This document shows positions 15,770-60,921 of a DNA stretch of 64,000 nt, piece by piece. Where the stretch lies: assembly GCF_023008405.1 (NCBI RefSeq), contig NZ_CP095376.1:6552501-6616500 (forward strand). Direction: 5' to 3'. The notes below the pieces were generated by a model. That model worked only from the letters and a program-made list of their open reading frames with translations, was not told the origin of the DNA and did not search any database. Position numbers and translations under genes: made by a program. How positions within the stretch are numbered: position 1 is the first letter of the stretch; every line of letters begins with the position of its first letter. The DNA comes from Amycolatopsis sp. FBCC-B4732. GTDB taxonomy: Bacteria > Actinomycetota > Actinomycetes > Mycobacteriales > Pseudonocardiaceae.

Positions 15770-17478
15770 CCCGCCGACAGTTCCGCGGCCACCGAGACGT
15801 ACGCGCGGATCGCTTCGTTCTCCTCCGACGCGCGCCACACCGGGACCGCGAGCATCGGCGGGATGTCCGGCACCGGGATCACCTTCAGCCCCGGGAACGG
15901 GTAGCGCTCCAGCAGCGAGACCACCGAGATGTGCAGGCCGATGCCGCGCGCCACCAGGGAAAGCATGTCCTCCGCGCCGATGCGGGTGCGGCCGATCAGC
16001 TGCGGGACGTCCTCCTCCGTGCGCGGGATCGGACGGCCCGACGGCGTGACCGGCGGGGCCCACAGGTCGCGTGCCACCGGATGGAGGGCCTTGCCCGGGT
16101 CGAGCAGCCGGTGGTCCGCGAGGTCCTCCAGGCTGACCGTCGTGCACGAGGCGAGCGGGTGGTCGTCGCGCAGCAGGAGGCCGCGGGGCACCGTCAGCAG
16201 CGCCGGGCCGGTGCGCAGGTTGGGTTGCGCGAACGAGCGCGTGTCGCCGCCCGGGGACCAGTGCAGCACCAGGTCGAGGTCGCCCTCGGCGAGCAGGTCC
16301 GTTTCGTTCCAGCGCTGGCCGATGCGGGTCGGGGTCAGGGTGACGCGGCACGCCGGGTGGCGGCGTTCGAACTCGGTCGTCACCCGCGTCACCAGGTCGC
16401 CGCCGAGGCTGGCCACGTAGCCCACGCGCAGGCGGCCGCCGATGCGGCGCTCGGCCAGCCGGGTCTCGGTGAAGATCGCCGCCAGCTCGGCCACGCCCGC
16501 GCGAGCGCCCGTGCGCAGCCGCTCCCCCAGCTCCGTCAGCCGGACGCCGCTTTCGCCGGACACCACCAGCGCGCCGCCGATTTCGGCTTCCAGCTCGCCG
16601 ATCTCCTTCTCCAGTACGTCGGCCGTGCTGCGGACCCGCCACGCCGCGGCCTCGAAGTCGCCTTCGCGCGCCACGATCAGCAACGTCGCGACCGCGCGGA
16701 TCGCGGCCAGCTCGATCAAGGACCCGGTCCGGGCGCCGGCCCGCGCGAGCGGCGCGTCCAGTTCGGGGTCACCGGCCAGGATCCGGCGGTGCAGCTCCCG
16801 CAGCGCCGGGCCCGGGTCCGCGCCGAGTGAGCCCGCCAGCCGCCGCCGGACGCGCTCGAAGTGCGCCAGCGCGTCCGCCTGCCGGCCGCTGCGGTAGTAG
16901 GCGAGGATCAGCTGGCCGGCCAGCCGCTCGTCGAACGGGTGGTCCGCGGCGGCCCGGGGCAGCTTCGCCAGCAGCGCCGCGTGCCGCCCGAGCCGCAGCG
17001 AGACGTCGTTGCGGTCCAGCCGGGCCGCGTGCCGCTCGGCTTCCAGGCCCTCCCGGACCTCGGTCAGCCACGGCGAATCCAGCCCGGCGAACGGTTCGCC
17101 CCGCCACAGCGCCAGCGCGTCGTCGAACAGCGCGGCCGCGGTGACGTCGCCCGCCGCGGCGCGCGCGAGCGCCACCTTCTCCCGGAACCGGTGCAGGTCG
17201 AGCGCGTCCAGGTCGACGCGCAGCAGGTAGCCGTGCGCGGTGCGGTCGATCGCGCACCCGGCGGCGCGCAGCCGCGAAAGGTAGCTGCGGACCGTCGCGG
17301 CCGCCCGGTGCGGCGGGCTCGCGCCCCAGACGCGCGTGACGAGCTGGTCGAGCGGCACCGGCCGGTTCGGCTCGGCCAGCAGCGCCGCGAGGACGTAGCG
17401 CCGCCGCGCGTGGCCGACGTCGAGGAGCGTGCCGCCGGACTCGGCTTCGAGGGTGCCGAGCACGCTGTAGCTGACCAC
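15766..17478 (-). CDS. SARP (Trans_reg_C-BTAD) fused to a LysR-type regulator
   Basis: This 570-residue protein joins two regulator types. Residues ~1-90 are an OmpR-like winged helix (VLGTLEAESGG..., LDQLVTRVWG) and ~95-235 a BTAD helical domain (DSPWLTEVREGLEAERHAAR), as in SARPs. Residues ~254-320 look like a LysR helix-turn-helix (IVAREGDFEAAAWRV, then GVRLTELGERL), and ~345-565 form a LysR substrate-binding domain (RVGYVASLGGDLV). I chose the GTG at 17478, which has GGGGAGGGAG just upstream. Two different DNA-binding domains plus an effector domain in one chain is unusual. The target is unknown. Confidence 0.85.
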   Translation of the reverse strand: MVSYSVLGTLEAESGGTLLDVGHARRRYVLAALLAEPNRPVPLDQLVTRVWGASPPHRAAATVRSYLSRLRAAGCAIDRTAHGYLLRVDLDALDLHRFREKVALARAAAGDVTAAALFDDALALWRGEPFAGLDSPWLTEVREGLEAERHAARLDRNDVSLRLGRHAALLAKLPRAAADHPFDERLAGQLILAYYRSGRQADALAHFERVRRRLAGSLGADPGPALRELHRRILAGDPELDAPLARAGARTGSLIELAAIRAVATLLIVAREGDFEAAAWRVRSTADVLEKEIGELEAEIGGALVVSGESGVRLTELGERLRTGARAGVAELAAIFTETRLAERRIGGRLRVGYVASLGGDLVTRVTTEFERRHPACRVTLTPTRIGQRWNETDLLAEGDLDLVLHWSPGGDTRSFAQPNLRTGPALLTVPRGLLLRDDHPLASCTTVSLEDLADHRLLDPGKALHPVARDLWAPPVTPSGRPIPRTEEDVPQLIGRTRIGAEDMLSLVARGIGLHISVVSLLERYPFPGLKVIPVPDIPPMLAVPVWRASEENEAIRAYVSVAAELSAG

Positions 17479-17599
17479 CGCACTCCCTCCCCGACCTGCG
17501 GATTCCACGATTCCGCAACGTTCGCACACGCCGCGTCCGGCAGTGTAAGCGGCGCAGGCGCGGGTGCCGAGGGGACGGCGCGCGCCCGGCTGGGGGTGT

Positions 17600-52834: not shown

Positions 52835-54406
52835 TCAGACCTTCTGCAGGCCAGGCTTGCCCGCTTGCACTACGTAACTGACATCGTTCTTGATCACGAC
52901 CGACGCCGGGTCGTAGACGCTGGTGTCCGACGTGGTCATGAAATCCGCTCGCGTCTGCCCGGGCGTGGTCGTGACGCGGACGTAGCCGCGCTCGCCCTTG
53001 CAGTACTTGACGTGCGGGTTGTTCGCGTACCAGGCCGCGCTCGGCGCGGTCGCGGTGTCGCTGTTGCTCGTCACCGACGTCGTGACCAGCTCCGAGCCGA
53101 TGACCGGGTCGCTGTGGTCGAAGTAGTCCAGCCGCAGGTCGGCGGCCCAGTGCCGGTGGACGTCGCCGGTGAGGACGACGGGGTTGGCGACCTTGCGGTC
53201 CACCCAGCCCTGCTGGATCCGGTTGCGGGAGGCCTCGTAGCCCTGCCAGGAGTCGGGGCTCTCGCAGGTGGCCTTGTTCCCGTCGCCGTCGCGCGTGGCG
53301 AAGAAGACCTGCTGGCCGAGGAAGTCCCACGTCGTCGGGTGCGACTCGAACTGCTTGAGCAGCCAGGCTTCCTCGGCGCTGCCGAGGATGCTGCGCGAGG
53401 TGCTGCGCGTGTCCGTGCACGACGGCCCGGTCGAGCCGGACGGGTCGGCCACCTGGGCGCTGCGGTACTGGCGCGTGTCGAGCATGTGGAAGCGGGCGAG
53501 GTTGCCCCAGACGAACTGGCGGTACAGCTGGATCAACGAGCCGTTCGGCTTGGCCGTGGACCGGATCGGGGTGTTCTCGTAGAACGCCTGGAACCCGGCG
53601 GCCTTGCGCGCGGCCGTCGCGGGCGAGGTGGTGCCGTTCCAGTTGTTCATCACCTCGTGGTCGTCGAAGACCACGATCCACGGCGCGATCGCGTGCGCGG
53701 CCTGCAGGTCGGCGTCGGTCTTGTGCTGCGCGTGGCGGGCACGGTACTGCGCGAGCGTCGTCACGTCCTCGGTGAAGGCCAGGCTGCGCGGGTTGCGTTC
53801 GGCTGCGGCGCGGCCCGACTTCTTCTCGTAGATGTAGTCGCCGAGGAACAGCACCAGGTCCGGGTCGTCGGCCACGATGCCCTTGTACGCGTGGTAGTAG
53901 CCCTCCTCCCAGTGCTGGCAGGAGCTGAAGCAGTACTTGAGCTGGTTGACCGCGGCACCGGCGGCGGGCGCGGTGCGCGTCCGGCCGACCGGCGAAAGGT
54001 AGCCGCCGGTCTTGAAGCGGTAGAAGTACTCCCGCGCGGGCTGCAGGCCGGTCGGTTCGATGTGGACGCTGTGCGCGGCCGCGCGGACGGCGCTCACCTG
54101 GCCGCTCTGCACGATCGAGCTGAACGCCTGGTCGTTCGCGATCTCCCAGTCGACCGCGTAGGTGGCGTCCGGCATGCCGCCGAAGCCGTCCGGGTCGAGC
54201 GGGGCCGGCGCGAGTCTCGTCCACAGGACCACGCTGTCGGGCAGCGGATCGCCGGACGCGACGCCGAGCTGGAAGGGATCGTGGACGGCCGGGGCGGCGG
54301 CCGTGGTGCGGGCGTTCGCCCACGACGGCAGCGCCGCCGAAGCCGCGGTGGCGGTGACCGCGGCGAGGCCGCCGAGGAGCACCTTGCGCCGGTTGACCTG
54401 ACCCAT
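52835..54406 (-). CDS. phoD: Tat-exported PhoD-family alkaline phosphatase
   Basis: This 523-residue phosphodiesterase/phosphomonoesterase has a Tat signal (VNRRKVLLGGLAAVTATAAS). An N-terminal Ig-like PhoD domain (FQLGVASGDPLPDSVVLWTR) precedes the metallophosphatase domain with CFSSCQHWEEGYYHAY, LFLGDYIYE, VFDDHEVMNNW and LTGDVHRHWAADL. It frees phosphate from esters outside the cell using Ca and Fe in known members. It starts 33 bases after the SH3-protein gene on the same strand, so the two may be cotranscribed. Confidence 0.95.
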   Translation of the reverse strand: MGQVNRRKVLLGGLAAVTATAASAALPSWANARTTAAAPAVHDPFQLGVASGDPLPDSVVLWTRLAPAPLDPDGFGGMPDATYAVDWEIANDQAFSSIVQSGQVSAVRAAAHSVHIEPTGLQPAREYFYRFKTGGYLSPVGRTRTAPAAGAAVNQLKYCFSSCQHWEEGYYHAYKGIVADDPDLVLFLGDYIYEKKSGRAAAERNPRSLAFTEDVTTLAQYRARHAQHKTDADLQAAHAIAPWIVVFDDHEVMNNWNGTTSPATAARKAAGFQAFYENTPIRSTAKPNGSLIQLYRQFVWGNLARFHMLDTRQYRSAQVADPSGSTGPSCTDTRSTSRSILGSAEEAWLLKQFESHPTTWDFLGQQVFFATRDGDGNKATCESPDSWQGYEASRNRIQQGWVDRKVANPVVLTGDVHRHWAADLRLDYFDHSDPVIGSELVTTSVTSNSDTATAPSAAWYANNPHVKYCKGERGYVRVTTTPGQTRADFMTTSDTSVYDPASVVIKNDVSYVVQAGKPGLQKV

Positions 54407-54439: not shown

Positions 54440-55096
54440 TCAGGCCGCGAAGTCGGTGAGGCCGTCGCTGCAGGACTTCAGGTCCGGCTTGCCGGTGGTG
54501 TAGTCGGCGACGCAGACCTTGTAGAAGACCCAGCCGCCGTGCGGGACGGAGACGGCCTTGTCGGCCTTCGTGCCCTCGCCACCGGAGTTCCAGACGTAGA
54601 ACGGCCCGGCACCGCCCTTGAGCCAGTAGGCGACGACGGCGGAGTAGCCGTCGGCGTTCGTGTCGTAGACCAGGAAGTGCGAGTCGGACGAGCGGTACTG
54701 CCCTTCGCCGGCACAGGCGTCGGCGCACTGGGCGCTGCCCGTGCCGACCCCGCAGTCCGGCGCGATCCGCGTGTCGGAACCGGTGTAGACGTAGGTGTCC
54801 GAGATGTACCCGCCGAGCGCGGGCACGTAGTCCCAGAGCGTGCTGGTGCCGTAGGTGCCGGTCACCGAGGAGCCGGTGAGCTGGCAGTCGATGGCCACGG
54901 TCGCGCCGTTCGCGACGGTCTTGACGGCCGTGGCGCTGGCGGTCGGCGCCCGGCGGACGTTGAGCGGGTCGCCCGCGGTCTTCACGGTGCCGCTCGCCGC
55001 GGCGGACGCCTCGAGCGCGCCGCCGGCCGCGAGCGAGCCGATCGCCGCCACGATCACCCCGAGTCCGGCGATACGCCGGAGGTTCAAACGCTTCAT
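54440..55096 (-). CDS. Secreted SH3-domain protein
   Basis: This 218-residue exported protein has a signal peptide at residues ~1-33. A bacterial SH3 domain follows (TVKTAGDPLNVRRAPTASAT, then GTYGTSTLWDYVPALGGYIS). The C-terminal ~110 residues are Cys-containing and of unknown fold (FLVYDTNADGYSAVVAYWLK). The SH3 domain is closely similar to the one at the C-terminus of the protein at 58235. No ribosome site precedes the ATG. A TGTACG-N5-TGTACG direct repeat ends 22 bases upstream, so the transcript may be leaderless and SARP-controlled. Confidence 0.8.
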   Translation of the reverse strand: MKRLNLRRIAGLGVIVAAIGSLAAGGALEASAAASGTVKTAGDPLNVRRAPTASATAVKTVANGATVAIDCQLTGSSVTGTYGTSTLWDYVPALGGYISDTYVYTGSDTRIAPDCGVGTGSAQCADACAGEGQYRSSDSHFLVYDTNADGYSAVVAYWLKGGAGPFYVWNSGGEGTKADKAVSVPHGGWVFYKVCVADYTTGKPDLKSCSDGLTDFAA

Positions 55097-55117
55097 GGCG
55101 GGAGCGTGACCGCGGCC

Positions 55118-55134
55118 CGTACACGTCTCGTACA
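55118..55134 (-). promoter_or_regulatory. SARP-type direct repeat before the SH3-phoD genes
   Basis: On the minus strand TGTACG-AGACG-TGTACG: two identical hexamers with an 11-base period, the spacing typical for SARP binding. A weaker third unit may start at 55140. It lies between the SH3 gene and the divergent AfsR-like gene. Confidence 0.65.
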
Positions 55135-55217
55135 AAGCCCGTCCTCGCGCGCACGCGCGCGCCCAGACACTCCGAATGGATCTATCGCCCGAGGTCGGGC
55201 GGTCATAGCATCCGCTC

Positions 55218-58139
55218 ATGGGGGAACTCATCGGGCAGGTTGAGACCACCTCGCTGACCATCCGCGTGCTCGGCCCGCTGGAGGTCACCGCCGCCGGGCG
55301 GGTGATCGCGCTGGGCGGGCCGAAGCCCCGGCTGCTGCTGGCCGCGCTGGCGCTGCAGCCGAACGTCGTCGTGTCCACCGACGTCCTGGTCGAAGTGCTG
55401 TGGCCGGAATCGGCGCCGCGGTCGGCCGCGGCGAACATCCGCACGTACGTCCATTCGCTGCGAAGGCGTTTCGCCGAAATCGACCCCGGTCTCGGCGAAC
55501 GGATCAGCAGCCGCGCGTCCGGCTACCTGCTGACCGCGTCCCCGGCGGAGCTGGACCACCTCGCCTTCGCGGCATTGGCGGGCGAAGCGCAGGAAGAGCT
55601 CGATCGCGACCGGGCCGAGAGCGCTCTCAAGCTGCTCGACCGCGCCGACGCGCTGTGGCGCGGCGAAGTCCTCGAAGGACTGCCGCACGACCACAGCTGG
55701 GGCGCGACCGTCGCCCGGCTCGCCGAACTCCGGCTGTCGGTGCAGGAACAGCGCCTGCGCGCGCGGATCGGCCTCGGCCGCTGCGGCGAGGCCGTCGCCG
55801 AGCTGCGGGGGCTGGTCACCGAGCACCCGCTGCGCGAAGAGCTCTGGGCGCAGCTGATCGTCGCGTTGCGCGCCGCGGGCCGGACCGCCGACGCGATCGA
55901 GGCGTACGAGTCGGCCGAGCGCGTCCTGCGCGAAGAGCTCGGCGCCGGACCGGGTGCGCGGCTGCGCGAGCTGCGCGCGACGCTGGTGCCGGAGACCGTC
56001 GCCGCCCCGCGCCCCGCCGACGTCGCCCCGGTCTGCCAGCTGCCGCTCGACCTGCCGGACTTCACCGGCCGTGACGACGTGATCCGCGACGTCGTCGCCC
56101 TGATGCGGGACCGGGCCGGCTCGGGCACGCCCGCCGTCATCGTGCTCACCGGCGCGCCCGGGGTCGGGAAGTCGGCGCTCGCCGTCCGCATCGCGCACGC
56201 GGTCCGCGAGGAGTTCGCCGACGGCCAGCTGCACGTCGACCTGGCCGGCACGTCGTCTTCGCCGCGCGCGCCGATGGGCGTGCTCGCCGAGCTGCTGCAC
56301 GCGCTCGGCGTCCCGGACGCGGGCCTGCCGCGGGAGCCGGCCGAGCGGTCGGCGCTGCTGCGGTCGCGGCTGGCCGGGCGGCGGATGTGCGTCGTGCTCG
56401 ACGACGCCGGGAGCGCCGCCCAGGTGCGGCCGCTGCTGCCCGGGGCCGGCGCGTGCGCGGTGCTGGTGACCAGCCGGATCCGGCTGCCGGGGCTGGCCGG
56501 CGCGAAGGCGGTCGACGTCGACCTGCTGCCCGAGGCCGAGGCCGCGCGGCTGCTGCAGGGCATCGTCGGCGCCGAGCGGGTGGCCGCCGAGCCGGAGAGC
56601 GCGGCGGCGATCCTGCGCCAGTGCGGGCACCTGCCGCTGGCGATCCGGGTGGCCGGCGCGAAGCTGACGCACCGGCCGGGCTGGACGCTGCGGCTGCTGG
56701 CCGACCGGCTGCGCGACGAGCACCGGCGGCTCGACGAACTGCGCGTCGGCGACCTCGCCGTCCGGGCGAGCGTGACGCTGTCCTACGACCTGCTGCCGAT
56801 GTCCGCGGCCACCGCGTTCCGCGGGCTCGGGCTGCTCGGGCCGGTCCAGTTCCCGCCGTGGGCGGTCGCGGCCGTGCTCGGCCGCCGCGACGCCGAAGAC
56901 GTGCTCGACGTGCTGGTCGACGGCCACCTCGTCGAGCTGGTCGGGTCCGATTCGGCGGGGCAGCCGCGGTACCGGCTCCACGACCTGCTGCGCGTGTACG
57001 CGGTCGAGCTGGCTGAACCGACCGACGCGGCGTCGGTGCGCCGGGTGCTGGAGGGCTACCTGGCGCTGGCGCTGGAGGCCGCGCGCCGGATGCCGCTGCA
57101 CTTCTTCGGCATGTACTGCGACGACGAGCTGCCGCGCCCGGCGGTGCCCGCGGACGTCCTGCCCGACGACCCGGCGGCGTGGTTCGCGGCCGAGCGCCAC
57201 ACCAGCGTCGCGGCGGTTTCCCTGGCCGCGGACAACGGCTTCGACGACCTGGCCTGGCAGCTGGCGTCGGCGCTGGCACCGTACTTCGACCTGCGCGGCC
57301 ACCAGGACGACTGGCACAGCACCCACCTCATCGCCCTGGCCGCGGCCCGCCGCACGGGCTCACTGCGCGCGGAGGCGATCGTCCAGCGCAACCTCGGGCA
57401 GTACCTGCTCTACCAGGACGAATACGCGGGTTCGCGGGTGGCGTTCGAGGAGTCCCGGGCGCTGTTCGAGCGGGTCGGCGACGCGCAGGGGGTCGGCATC
57501 GCGCTGACCGGGCTCGCGACGATCCTGCGCATCGAGGGCGAGGACGACCGCGCACTCGACCACTGCCACGAGGCGCTCAAGCTGTTCGCGGAGGCGGACG
57601 ACCCGCACGGCGAAGCGGTGGCGCGCATCGGCGCGGGCGCGGTCTGGATGTCCCGAGGCTGCTACGCGGCGGCGAAGCGCTGGTTCACCGACGCCTTGGA
57701 GCTGTCCGCGGCGATCGGCGACCGGCACCGCGAGGCCCACGCGTTCAAGCGCCTGGGCCTGCTGTTCCAGCACCAGGGCAACCTGGCGGCGGCCCGCGAG
57801 CACGTCGACCGGGCGATCGCGATCTTCACCGACCTCGGTGACGACCATTGTGTGGGGTACGCGAACCAGAACCTCGGTGAGTTGTGCCTGCACAGCGGGG
57901 ACTTCGCGCATGCGCAGCTGTTGCTGGTGAACTCGCTGTCGGTGCACCGCCGGAACGGGGACCGGCGGTCGGAGGCGGAGGTCTCGCAGCTGCTCGGGGA
58001 GCTGCACCGGGCGCTTTCGCAGCCGGAGCGGTCGCGGGACTACTCGGAGCGGGCGCTGGCGATCTGGCGGGAGCTGTCCTCCTCCCGGCCCCCGGCTCCC
58101 GCGGCGCCCGCCGAGCCACCGCACATCGTTTCCGCCTGA
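55218..58139 (+). CDS. AfsR-like SARP-NB-ARC-TPR transcriptional regulator
   Basis: This 973-residue regulator has the same layout as Streptomyces AfsR. Residues ~15-105 are an OmpR-like DNA-binding domain (LTIRVLGPLEVTAAGRVIAL) and ~112-255 a BTAD domain. The NB-ARC ATPase has Walker A GAPGVGKS (312-319) and VVLDDAGSA. The C-terminal ~250 residues are TPR repeats (GEAVARIGAGAVWMSRGCYA, HAFKRLGLLFQHQGNLAAAR). ATP state and a partner or ligand probably gate DNA binding. It sits between two genes for secreted SH3 proteins that share direct repeats in their promoters. Confidence 0.93.
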   Translation: MGELIGQVETTSLTIRVLGPLEVTAAGRVIALGGPKPRLLLAALALQPNVVVSTDVLVEVLWPESAPRSAAANIRTYVHSLRRRFAEIDPGLGERISSRASGYLLTASPAELDHLAFAALAGEAQEELDRDRAESALKLLDRADALWRGEVLEGLPHDHSWGATVARLAELRLSVQEQRLRARIGLGRCGEAVAELRGLVTEHPLREELWAQLIVALRAAGRTADAIEAYESAERVLREELGAGPGARLRELRATLVPETVAAPRPADVAPVCQLPLDLPDFTGRDDVIRDVVALMRDRAGSGTPAVIVLTGAPGVGKSALAVRIAHAVREEFADGQLHVDLAGTSSSPRAPMGVLAELLHALGVPDAGLPREPAERSALLRSRLAGRRMCVVLDDAGSAAQVRPLLPGAGACAVLVTSRIRLPGLAGAKAVDVDLLPEAEAARLLQGIVGAERVAAEPESAAAILRQCGHLPLAIRVAGAKLTHRPGWTLRLLADRLRDEHRRLDELRVGDLAVRASVTLSYDLLPMSAATAFRGLGLLGPVQFPPWAVAAVLGRRDAEDVLDVLVDGHLVELVGSDSAGQPRYRLHDLLRVYAVELAEPTDAASVRRVLEGYLALALEAARRMPLHFFGMYCDDELPRPAVPADVLPDDPAAWFAAERHTSVAAVSLAADNGFDDLAWQLASALAPYFDLRGHQDDWHSTHLIALAAARRTGSLRAEAIVQRNLGQYLLYQDEYAGSRVAFEESRALFERVGDAQGVGIALTGLATILRIEGEDDRALDHCHEALKLFAEADDPHGEAVARIGAGAVWMSRGCYAAAKRWFTDALELSAAIGDRHREAHAFKRLGLLFQHQGNLAAAREHVDRAIAIFTDLGDDHCVGYANQNLGELCLHSGDFAHAQLLLVNSLSVHRRNGDRRSEAEVSQLLGELHRALSQPERSRDYSERALAIWRELSSSRPPAPAAPAEPPHIVSA

Positions 58140-58160
58140 CGCCCGGGTGCACAACCTGCT

Positions 58161-58177
58161 TGTACGGATCATGTACG
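58161..58177 (+). promoter_or_regulatory. SARP-type direct repeat before the second SH3-protein gene
   Basis: TGTACG-GATCA-TGTACG: the same hexamer, orientation relative to the gene, and 11-base period as at 55118-55134. It ends 57 bases before the start codon, leaving room for a -10 box about eight bases downstream. Confidence 0.68.
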
Positions 58178-58234
58178 TCGTCCCGTCAGTCTTTCGCCAC
58201 GTTCGAGTGAACAGGTGCGAAGGGAGAACCGGGG

Positions 58235-59458
58235 ATGATCCGGATCAGGAAGGCCGGCCGCGTGACCGCGGCGGTTCTGGCCGCGGGGGCGGTGACGGCG
58301 CTGGCCGGAGCACCCGCCCAGGCCGCGACGAAGACCGATGGCGCGAGCTGGACCGCCGACGTGTCCACTGTGGACACCGATGACGTCAACGTCGCCGGCA
58401 CCGGCGGAACGCTGACGCTGGCCGACGCCGCGTGGCACAGAACCGCAAGGGTTTTCGCCGGCAGTGAAGGCAGTCTCACCACCGCCGAACACGCGCTCGG
58501 CTCCGCCGCCAACCGCGTCAGCGCGGAACTGGCCGCCGACACGCCGAAGGGGACCTCGGTCGACGTCGACGTCCGCGGCCGGACCGGGGTGAACGACTGG
58601 ACCGAGTGGACGCCCGCGGGCACCACGCTCAAGACCGCCGTCTCCGCCGTGCAGGTGCGCATCAGCCTGCACAGCAGCACCGACGGCGTGCGGCCGACGG
58701 TCAAGGACGTCAAGCTCAGCGCCGACAACGCCCCGCAGGTCAACGCGCTGGCCGCGACCGCCGCGCTGACGTACAAGGTCTACGGCACCCGCGAGGGCCT
58801 GATCGGTGGCACGACCGCGAACGGTCACGTCATCACCAGCCGCGACCACTTCGTCGCGCTGCCGTCCGGAAAAGGCTTGTCCAGTAAGGGATCGGGCACC
58901 TACTCCGTGCGCGTCTGCCGCACCGACGGCAGCAAGTGCGAGTACGCGCCGGTGTGGGACATCGGCCCGTGGAACGAGCAGGACGACTACTGGAACCCGG
59001 CGGCGACCCGGACCAAGTTCAAGGACCTGCCGCAGGGCCAGCCCGAGGCGTACGCCGCTTACTACAACGGGTACAACGGCGGCAAGAGCGGCCTCGGCTA
59101 CAAGGTGGCGAACCCGGCCGGCATCGACCTCGCCGACGGCGTCTTCTGGGACGGGCTCGGCATGTCCGACAACGGCAACGTCAACGTCACCTACCTGTGG
59201 ACCGGCTCCGGCCCGACCGGCGTGGTCAGCACCGCGGGCGACCCGATGAACGTCCGGGCGAGCGCGAGCACGTCGGCCGCCATCAAGGGCCTCGCGGCGA
59301 ACTACGCCAAGGTGACCATCGAGTGCTACGTCGAGGGCGACACCGTCACCGGCAAGTTCGGCACCAGCAACATCTGGGACCGCATCGGCCCCGGCCACTA
59401 CGTGTCGGACACCTACCTGCAGACCGGCTCCGACCTCCCGGTGGCGCCGAAATGCTGA
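58235..59458 (+). CDS. Secreted protein with C-terminal SH3 domain
   Basis: This 407-residue exported protein has a signal peptide at residues ~1-30 and a beta-rich domain (~35-165: VDVDVRGRTGVNDWTEWTPA). A central domain (~175-320) with VWDIGPWNEQDDYWNPAATR follows, and the C-terminal ~80 residues are an SH3 domain (GVVSTAGDPMNVRASASTSA). The SH3 part matches the N-terminal SH3 of the 54440 protein, including the GTS-WD-YVSDTYLQTGSD ending. GGGAG precedes the ATG. It may bind cell-wall or polymeric carbohydrate; the function is unknown. Confidence 0.8.
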   Translation: MIRIRKAGRVTAAVLAAGAVTALAGAPAQAATKTDGASWTADVSTVDTDDVNVAGTGGTLTLADAAWHRTARVFAGSEGSLTTAEHALGSAANRVSAELAADTPKGTSVDVDVRGRTGVNDWTEWTPAGTTLKTAVSAVQVRISLHSSTDGVRPTVKDVKLSADNAPQVNALAATAALTYKVYGTREGLIGGTTANGHVITSRDHFVALPSGKGLSSKGSGTYSVRVCRTDGSKCEYAPVWDIGPWNEQDDYWNPAATRTKFKDLPQGQPEAYAAYYNGYNGGKSGLGYKVANPAGIDLADGVFWDGLGMSDNGNVNVTYLWTGSGPTGVVSTAGDPMNVRASASTSAAIKGLAANYAKVTIECYVEGDTVTGKFGTSNIWDRIGPGHYVSDTYLQTGSDLPVAPKC

Positions 59459-59691: not shown

Positions 59692-60921
59692 GTGAGCGTT
59701 TCCCGGAGAACCCTGCTGACCACCGCGGCCGGTGCCGCGGTGGCCGCGAGCAGCCCGACCCCTGCTTTCGCGGCCACCCCCGAACTTCCCGACCAGGCCA
59801 CCGTGACCCGGACGCTCCGCCAAGCGGCCGATTACGCGGTGGCGAAGCTGCGCGCGGTGGCCCCCGGCGTCACCGCGTTCCCGGTCGGCACGAAGTTCGA
59901 GAAATGGACCTATTCGCAGAATGGCGACTGGGTCGGCGGATTCTGGCCCGGCCAGTTGTGGCTGGCCTGGCTGCACAGCGGCGAGGAACAATTCAGGACC
60001 CTCGCACTGGCGTCCGCGGAGAAACTCGCGCCGCGCCGGACCGACACCGGAACGCACGACCTCGGCTTCCTCTTCTACCCCTCGTGGGTGACCGCCTGGC
60101 GGCTCACCGGCGACGAGAAGTGGCGCGCGGGCGCGATCCAGGCCGCGTCATCGCTCATCAAGCGCTACAACCCGGCCGGGAAGTTCATCCGCGCCTGGGG
60201 TGCGCTGAACGACCCGGGCAATGCCGGCCGCGTCATCATGGACACGATGATGAACCTGGACCTGCTGGCGTTCGCGACCGAGCAGACCGGGGACCCGGCG
60301 TACCTGGACATCGCGGTCGCGCACGCCAGGACCGCGCAGAAGAACTTCCCGCGCCCCGACGGGTCGACGCCGCACGTGTTCGACTTCGACCCGGTCACCG
60401 GCGCGCCGGTCGGGCCCAACACCGTGCAGGGCTACAGCCCGGCGTCGTGCTGGTCGCGCGGGCAGGCGTGGGGCGTCTACGGGTTCACCACGATCCACCG
60501 GCGCACCGGCGACCCGGAGTTCCTGACGACGGCGCAGCGCCTCGCGGACTACGCGCTGTCCCGGCTGACCGCCGACCACGTGCCGGTGTGGGACTACCTG
60601 GCGCCGCAGGCCCCCGACGACGTCAAGGACGCCTCCGCCGGCGTGATCATGGCGTGCGGCCTGCTGGACCTGGCCGAGCTCACGCACCGCCCGCAGTACC
60701 GGGACAGCGCGCTGCGCATCCTGACGGCGGTGTCGCGCACGTGCCTGACGACGAAGTCCACCCGCGCCGAAGCGAGCGTCGCCCGCTGCACCCGCAACCG
60801 CCCGGCCGAGGACGGCGTCGAGGTGTCGCTCCCCTACGCCGACTACTACCTGCTGGAAGGCATCCTGCGGGTGCTGGACCGGCGGAAGGTCGACCGCGCG
60901 GTCGACCTGTCGAGCGTGTAG
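59692..60921 (+). CDS. Tat-exported GH88 unsaturated glucuronyl hydrolase
   Basis: This 409-residue enzyme has a Tat signal (VSRRTLLTTAAGAAVAASS) and a GH88 alpha/alpha barrel with WVGGFWPGQLWLAWLHSGEE, GHDLGF-like THDLGFLFYPSW, RVIMDTMMNLDLLAFA with the catalytic Asp, and CWSRGQAWGVYGF. It hydrolyses the unsaturated uronic acid at the end of lyase-cut oligosaccharides. With GH28 and GH105 nearby it fits uronic-acid polymer breakdown. It converges on the DUF4396 gene. Confidence 0.9.
   Translation: MSVSRRTLLTTAAGAAVAASSPTPAFAATPELPDQATVTRTLRQAADYAVAKLRAVAPGVTAFPVGTKFEKWTYSQNGDWVGGFWPGQLWLAWLHSGEEQFRTLALASAEKLAPRRTDTGTHDLGFLFYPSWVTAWRLTGDEKWRAGAIQAASSLIKRYNPAGKFIRAWGALNDPGNAGRVIMDTMMNLDLLAFATEQTGDPAYLDIAVAHARTAQKNFPRPDGSTPHVFDFDPVTGAPVGPNTVQGYSPASCWSRGQAWGVYGFTTIHRRTGDPEFLTTAQRLADYALSRLTADHVPVWDYLAPQAPDDVKDASAGVIMACGLLDLAELTHRPQYRDSALRILTAVSRTCLTTKSTRAEASVARCTRNRPAEDGVEVSLPYADYYLLEGILRVLDRRKVDRAVDLSSV

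Follow-up and report, generated by a model that had tools for sequence, protein, structure and literature searches.

A large regulator gene in Amycolatopsis sp. FBCC-B4732 stands between two genes for exported proteins, and each of these neighbors carries the direct repeat TGTACG-N5-TGTACG in its promoter. What does the regulator control, and through which sites? Regulators of the SARP family are best known for control of antibiotic production. The genus Amycolatopsis includes producers of rifamycin and vancomycin, according to published abstracts. Here, we analyzed a 64,000-nt stretch of DNA (the window), the complete genome and genomes of relatives. The results point strongly to direct activation by this AfsR-type SARP, through predicted binding to TGTACG-N5-TGTACG, of a regulon of exported proteins that is rich in wall-associated types. 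The initial annotation had interpreted the SARP, the repeat and the secreted proteins as a regulatory system, an interpretation supported by the rarity of the repeat, the positions of its sites, the gene order in many relatives and the co-occurrence of repeat and regulator. The features of the locus are listed in Table 1.

Table 1. Genes and predicted regulatory elements of the SARP locus, in window positions.
Feature	Position	Strand	Basis
phoD-like phosphatase gene	52835..54406	-	PF09423, E 7e-99
Left gene: exported protein of 218 aa with an N-terminal SH3-like, putatively wall-binding domain and a C-terminal region of ~100 aa without assigned function	54440..55096	-	sequence
Predicted -10 box CACGCT of the left promoter	55103..55108	-	sequence and position statistics
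Left-promoter direct repeat TGTACG-AGACG-TGTACG, predicted SARP box	55118..55134	-	pattern search
SARP gene, 973 aa: OmpR-type DNA-binding domain, BTAD, NB-ARC ATPase, TPR	55218..58139	+	Pfam
Predicted recognition helix alpha3, residues 75-83 (RTYVHSLRR)	55440..55466	+	alignment to AfsR
Right-promoter direct repeat TGTACG-GATCA-TGTACG, predicted SARP box	58161..58177	+	pattern search
Predicted -10 box CAGTCT of the right promoter	58187..58192	+	sequence and position statistics
Right gene: exported protein of 407 aa with a C-terminal SH3-like, putatively wall-binding domain, the rest without a family	58235..59458	+	sequence

The Pfam domains of the regulator (Trans_reg_C, BTAD, NB-ARC and TPR) stand in the order of a large AfsR-type SARP, with the Walker A motif of the NB-ARC domain at residues 312-319. 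That a SARP-type protein can regulate cell-envelope genes has a precedent in EmbR, which lacks the NOD-TPR part and has arabinosyltransferase genes, not exported hydrolases, as targets. The DBD-BTAD region of the protein matches the SARP-like region of EmbR from Mycobacterium tuberculosis (2fez, E 3e-30); EmbR, as the available part of its description states, has an FHA domain, unlike the SARP studied here. The closest solved structures are those of AfsR (8k60 and 8jke, E ~1e-110), and the SARP-NOD-TPR architecture is common to this protein and AfsR of Streptomyces coelicolor, the regulator that acts at the afs box (PMC10936776; 8k60, 8jke, 8hvr). Against the NCBIfam equivalog for AfsR (NF053617) the protein scores 518 bits, well short of the cut-off of 1430, and it does not belong to that equivalog.

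The left and right proteins share a domain at opposite ends, as had been claimed at the outset: residues 35-115 of the left protein (N-terminal) and 328-407 of the right (C-terminal) are 49% identical over 81 aa. Pfam gave no scoring family in either protein of this genome. Structure matches identify the domain as SH3-like and probably wall-binding (8b2s, E 3e-13, for the left family; 8b2g, E 1e-8, for the right family). The domain of 8b2s, 8b2f, 8b2g and 8b2h matches the left, right and CHAP-like targets described below, where it is attached to regions that have no family or are weakly CHAP-like; among the matches listed, none is to the GH24 or GH184 catalytic parts. The SH3-type regions of the same three proteins also match GsmA, a wall hydrolase of sporangiospore maturation (NF038016), at 39-57 bits against a cut-off of 240, too low for any of them to be GsmA itself. 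The phoD gene starts 33 bp past the stop of the left gene. Among 53 SARP-type loci searched, 30 gave a left-gene match, and phoD adjoins the left gene in 29 of them; in the thirtieth (L293) the match is weak and partial and phoD is nearby. The phoD gene is possibly co-transcribed with the left gene. On the other side, a Glyco_hydro_88-type gene (window 59692-60918, plus strand) adjoins the right gene and has a promoter without the exact repeat.

Within the window the exact repeat occurs only at the two sites of Table 1, where it had been reported, and 100 dinucleotide shuffles of the window yielded no copy. The 10.19-Mb genome (one contig) contains six exact repeats, against none for a reversed-pattern control. 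On these two counts we rejected a chance origin. All six repeats lie 21-57 bp before a signal-peptide-like ORF, in the same orientation relative to that ORF, and two of them flank the SARP gene. A check of rarity and of related positions had been set in advance, and both turned out as the regulatory interpretation predicts. A relaxed scan of the genome that included the -10 box and allowed at most two mismatches gave 20 matches, compared to 3 for controls. Inspection of the 14 non-exact matches identified four with a recognizable exported product: an SH3-like protein (kin of the CHAP-like protein), a GH6 protein, one that weakly resembles PG_binding, and an M23 peptidase, the site of which lacks the A of the -10 box. 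Two others were flagged by our crude signal-peptide rule but look wrong by eye, and eight have no such product. The GH6-type gene with a degenerate box (L242, G000:C1:1504511-1504542, minus strand) has a frame that is apparently broken after about 120 residues. The pectin-type genes of the window were set aside as targets, as they have no exact site and do not appear in the relaxed scan.

The repeat is frequent in the genus. We identified 125 sites in 35 congeneric genomes (1 for the control), and 6 sites in 24 genomes from other families of the order (3 for the controls). These 6 sites have neither a signal-peptide ORF nor a -10 box. Counting triple repeats once, the own genome and the 35 congeneric genomes together hold 127 sites. 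According to a crude, home-made signal-peptide rule, 120 of these precede a signal-peptide ORF within 80 bp, and the products fall into 14 families; of 3000 random window positions, 312 pass the same rule, as do 75 of 580 TGTACG hexamers that occur singly. Four of the seven exceptions have no such ORF and three have a poor candidate further off. A 32-base extended motif was matched 289 times in 80 congeneric genomes, at least once in 69 of them, with no match for the control. In 393 other genomes of the class, a search for the motif only gave 0 matches and 1 for the control.

The geometry of these sites is close to invariant. Offsets were counted from the base after the repeat, and those from +5 to +22 were tested. 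An A at +11 together with a T at +15 (nAnnnT) occurs in 117 of the 120 sites, and in 11.8 of 14 when families are weighted equally; every other offset in the range gives 0-9 of 120. At random positions the same combination is found in 55 of 3000 cases (1.8%). The spacing is fixed in five of the six exact sites of the own genome and is one base longer in the sixth (L003). For SARP targets, the accessible part of PMC10936776 gives a distance of 8 bp from the 3' repeat to the -10 element and a spacing of 11 or 22 bp between repeats. With the 7-mer TGTACGN taken as the unit, the 8-bp rule holds exactly in 117 of the 120 sites, measured to predicted -10 boxes. Likeness to AfsR, as far as that source describes it, thus extends to the two direct repeats at 11 bp, the -10 spacing rule and the nAnnnT form of the -10 element. 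When the -10 hexamer is placed at -12 to -7, which is our own assignment, the two hexamers have their first T at -38 and -27, and their third base at -36 and -25. For the AfsR complex, the available part of its description gives a box from -40 to -19 and the -10 element CACTGT, with contacts from R92 to T-38 and T-27 and from T88 to G-36(t) and A-25(t). By this analogy the TGTACG repeats would coincide with the positions where AfsR contacts DNA.

The same assignment bears on the transcripts. If CACGCT spans -12 to -7 in the left promoter, +1 is the A of the left-gene ATG. An in-frame ATG or GTG lies at the predicted +1 or +2 in 54 of the 120 targets, and therefore these probably have leaderless mRNAs. 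The remaining targets have a leader, in some cases with a stretch that resembles a ribosome site by eye.

The constant distance from repeat to -10 box would also suit an alternative sigma factor that reads the repeat directly as a core promoter element. We consider this most unlikely. A sigma -35 element does not usually take the form of two or three hexamers repeated in tandem every 11 bp, and an activator of a fitting class is encoded next door. Furthermore, nAnnnT resembles the afsS -10 element CACTGT, which is served by the housekeeping sigma factor according to the accessible part of the source. Under direct activation by the SARP, two adjacent protomers would occupy TGTACG-N5-TGTACG, which overlaps the -35 region, and may recruit the housekeeping sigma factor to weak nAnnnT promoters, a mechanism proposed by analogy with AfsR. 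Roughly one in two target mRNAs would lack a leader. The direct targets would be the two neighbors and the four other genes with exact sites and, probably, some four further genes whose sites are degenerate. In 4 of 60 genomes (G002, G018, G022 and G032) the hexamer TGTACG stands three times in tandem at the 11-bp period; triple hexamers (e.g., L111, L114 and L134) precede a BNR/neuraminidase-like gene.

Presence of the repeat follows presence of the regulator. Among 249 genomes of the family, including the own genome, with a SARP orthologue called at E <= 1e-300, the repeat occurs in 29 of 31 genomes with the orthologue and in 39 of 218 without it (Fisher p 7e-17, a value that ignores kinship, although relatives cannot count as independent). 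The exact repeat is missing from two SARP-bearing genomes: G111, which has a one-base variant and a correct -10 box before its left-gene orthologue, and G113, which has no left-gene orthologue next to the SARP. Outside the genus, in genomes with the SARP or part of it (G168 was counted on a partial match, 68%), 12 of 16 sites have both a -10 box and a signal-peptide ORF, 13 have the ORF, and four fail one or both criteria. For genomes scored as SARP-less, a subset of 19 sites was considered, 13 of them in the family and 6 in the order, and only two have a -10 box and a flagged ORF. One of these (L168) is in a genome, G186, that encodes a SARP at 62% identity (E 9e-299); the product of the other (L165) looks cytosolic by eye. 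A further site (L172) has a flagged ORF without a -10 box. Within the genus, the SARP is present in 79 of 80 genomes; a count against the proposed link is that 11 of the 79 have no exact extended motif. The mean number of motif matches declines with SARP identity, from 5.9 at 85% or more (n=28) to 3.3 at 73-84% (n=35) and 0.6 below that (n=16).

It is conceivable that the repeat is bound by a different regulator of the winged-helix type (a second SARP, or a response regulator of the PhoP/OmpR kind) and that the neighboring SARP is merely co-inherited. The genome has 38 other SARP-like matches (some are pieces of one gene), phoD lies downstream of the left gene, and the one congeneric genome from which the SARP is absent (G001) has one match to the extended motif, although no signal-peptide ORF was found behind it. 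We nevertheless regard this explanation as unlikely, given that motif presence tracks the SARP orthologue and that the SARP gene has the repeat beside it even when its neighboring target is a different one: in G170 an M23-like gene takes that place, with the repeat present and no -10 match. PhoP in particular was set aside as the reader on the basis of this distribution and the hexamer itself, as TGTACG is, compared by eye, unlike GTTCACC, the unit of the PHO box of the PhoP regulon. A regulon of comparable design is nonetheless on record. In Actinoplanes missouriensis, TcrA, an orphan response regulator, reads an 11-bp-period repeat and activates genes for secreted hydrolases, a parallel in favor of a response regulator; its box, GCA(A/C)CCG-n4-GCA(A/C)CCG, is unlike the one reported here (PMC12691653, in its accessible part).

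The recognition helix provides a further link between this SARP and the repeat. Residues R75, T76, H79 and S80 align with R87, T88, S91 and R92 of AfsR. Of the AfsR base-contact pair T88 and R92, the threonine is retained as T76 and the arginine is replaced by S80. The helix of the orthologues reads RTY[V/I]H[S/N/G/F]LR in 36 of 36 loci, with T at the variable position in one further locus. H79 is invariant in those 36 loci and is found in none of the best-scoring 29 of the other SARP matches of the own genome, which also argues against a second SARP as the reader. At the R92 position the orthologues have S, T, G, N or F. Because R92 is not conserved, base recognition must differ from that of AfsR. 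The AfsR box is CGTT(T/C)ATCG (PMC10972967, in its accessible part), compared to TGTACG here, and H79 and the loss of R92 fit such a changed preference, although which residue would read which base is deduced from the alignment. A second SARP-type DNA-binding/BTAD region lies in the window at 16783-17481 (minus strand); it is 38% identical and lacks H79. One clade showed a TAG within its SARP; this was dismissed after tblastn gave no stop in the aligned region, the codon having come from reading through past the end.

How widely is the arrangement kept? Conservation of gene order and repeats, the expectation raised by the initial annotation, holds in many relatives but not in all, as a left-gene match is present in 30 of the 53 SARP loci. 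With the strict pattern, the repeat is at the left gene in 25 of these 30. The five misses comprise three degenerate repeats, one exact repeat recovered by separate inspection (L194) and one weak match. At the right gene the strict pattern finds the repeat in 15 of 36 loci; the other 21 include 7 partial matches with the promoter outside the view, 11 drifted repeats (TGTATC-GATCG-TGTACA or close to it) and 3 other remnants. The whole gene order is kept in G235 (L194) and G111 (L201), and in g43, g37 (a one-base variant) and g53, too, the SARP gene has repeats next to it or on both sides. The locus had been described as a compact regulator/secreted-protein system. The local trio is present, but most sites are far from the regulator.

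The six products with exact sites in the own genome all look exported. They are the left and right proteins, an SH3-like protein with weak CHAP/NlpC similarity, a BNR/neuraminidase-like protein, an Amidase_2 protein with a weak TAT-signal match that is a relative of peptidoglycan recognition proteins, and one without a family; SH3-like, CHAP-like or amidase domains thus occur in four of the six. Across the 120 sites, wall types account for 59 sites and 5 of the 14 families (SH3-like left, right, CHAP-like, Amidase_2 and M23), and the SH3-like family is the commonest (30 sites). The other 61 sites precede genes for BNR/neuraminidase-like (24, the second commonest), GH6 (11), propeller-type (11), PLD-like and beta-helix proteins, and proteins of no family. 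These 61 sites, together with the Glyco_hydro_88 gene and phoD nearby, could indicate that the SARP binds as proposed and serves general exoenzyme scavenging rather than the cell wall, a possibility that we take seriously but do not expect to hold. Against it stand the wall-type counts above, as well as the targets seen beyond the genus: SH3 and M23 proteins, others that are CHAP-like or PG-binding-like by eye, and one propeller type. A further point is a C-terminal domain common to the BNR family and the M23 target. This domain of ~100 residues is 64% identical between the two (clusters c1 and c14; e.g., L080, L035; L249) and is perhaps a common anchor. The wall is the largest single theme, and we favor it, although a broader role in lysis or scavenging is also possible. 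For the suggestion that the system is wall- or carbon-source-linked, both alternatives are plausible and the wall is favored, with 59 wall-type sites against 61 for other exported proteins.

A wall-rich regulon under the SARP would be consistent with a role in wall remodeling or lysis, with the ATPase/TPR part presumably controlling the switch. One may speculate that the NOD-TPR part detects fragments of peptidoglycan that come from the cell's own hyphae or from foreign bacteria, in the manner of animal NOD receptors, while the SARP half deploys wall-binding, wall-cutting and other lytic exoenzymes. We consider this rather unlikely; if true, it would make the protein a bacterial STAND sensor-activator that controls hyphal remodeling or lysis of neighbors.

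The class of mechanism is known from AfsR. The target class, the box and the recognition helix are new to us: the predicted targets here are scattered genes for exported proteins, not afsS, and R92 is replaced, with H79 at the S91 position. No report of a TGTACG-box SARP regulon was found in the accessible parts of the open-access literature searched, PMC7852140 included. The analysis ties an AfsR-type SARP, at single-base resolution, to a predicted set of exported proteins of which about half are wall-targeting, and yields a DNA motif, a promoter geometry and a target list. Visible wall or lysis phenotypes may offer a way to ask what AfsR-type NOD-TPR regulators sense. The combination of H79, R92 loss and TGTACG represents a putative natural specificity variant for the SARP recognition code, and many leaderless mRNAs are predicted for exported proteins.

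Some occurrences of the repeat may be of a different kind. At L170, L171 and L173, identical 17-mers recur in several g60 genomes (TGTACGCACACTGTACG), without a -10 box or a flagged ORF, and 17-mers likewise recur in several g55 genomes (TGTACGACTGATGTACG). These recurrent 17-mers are perhaps another element.
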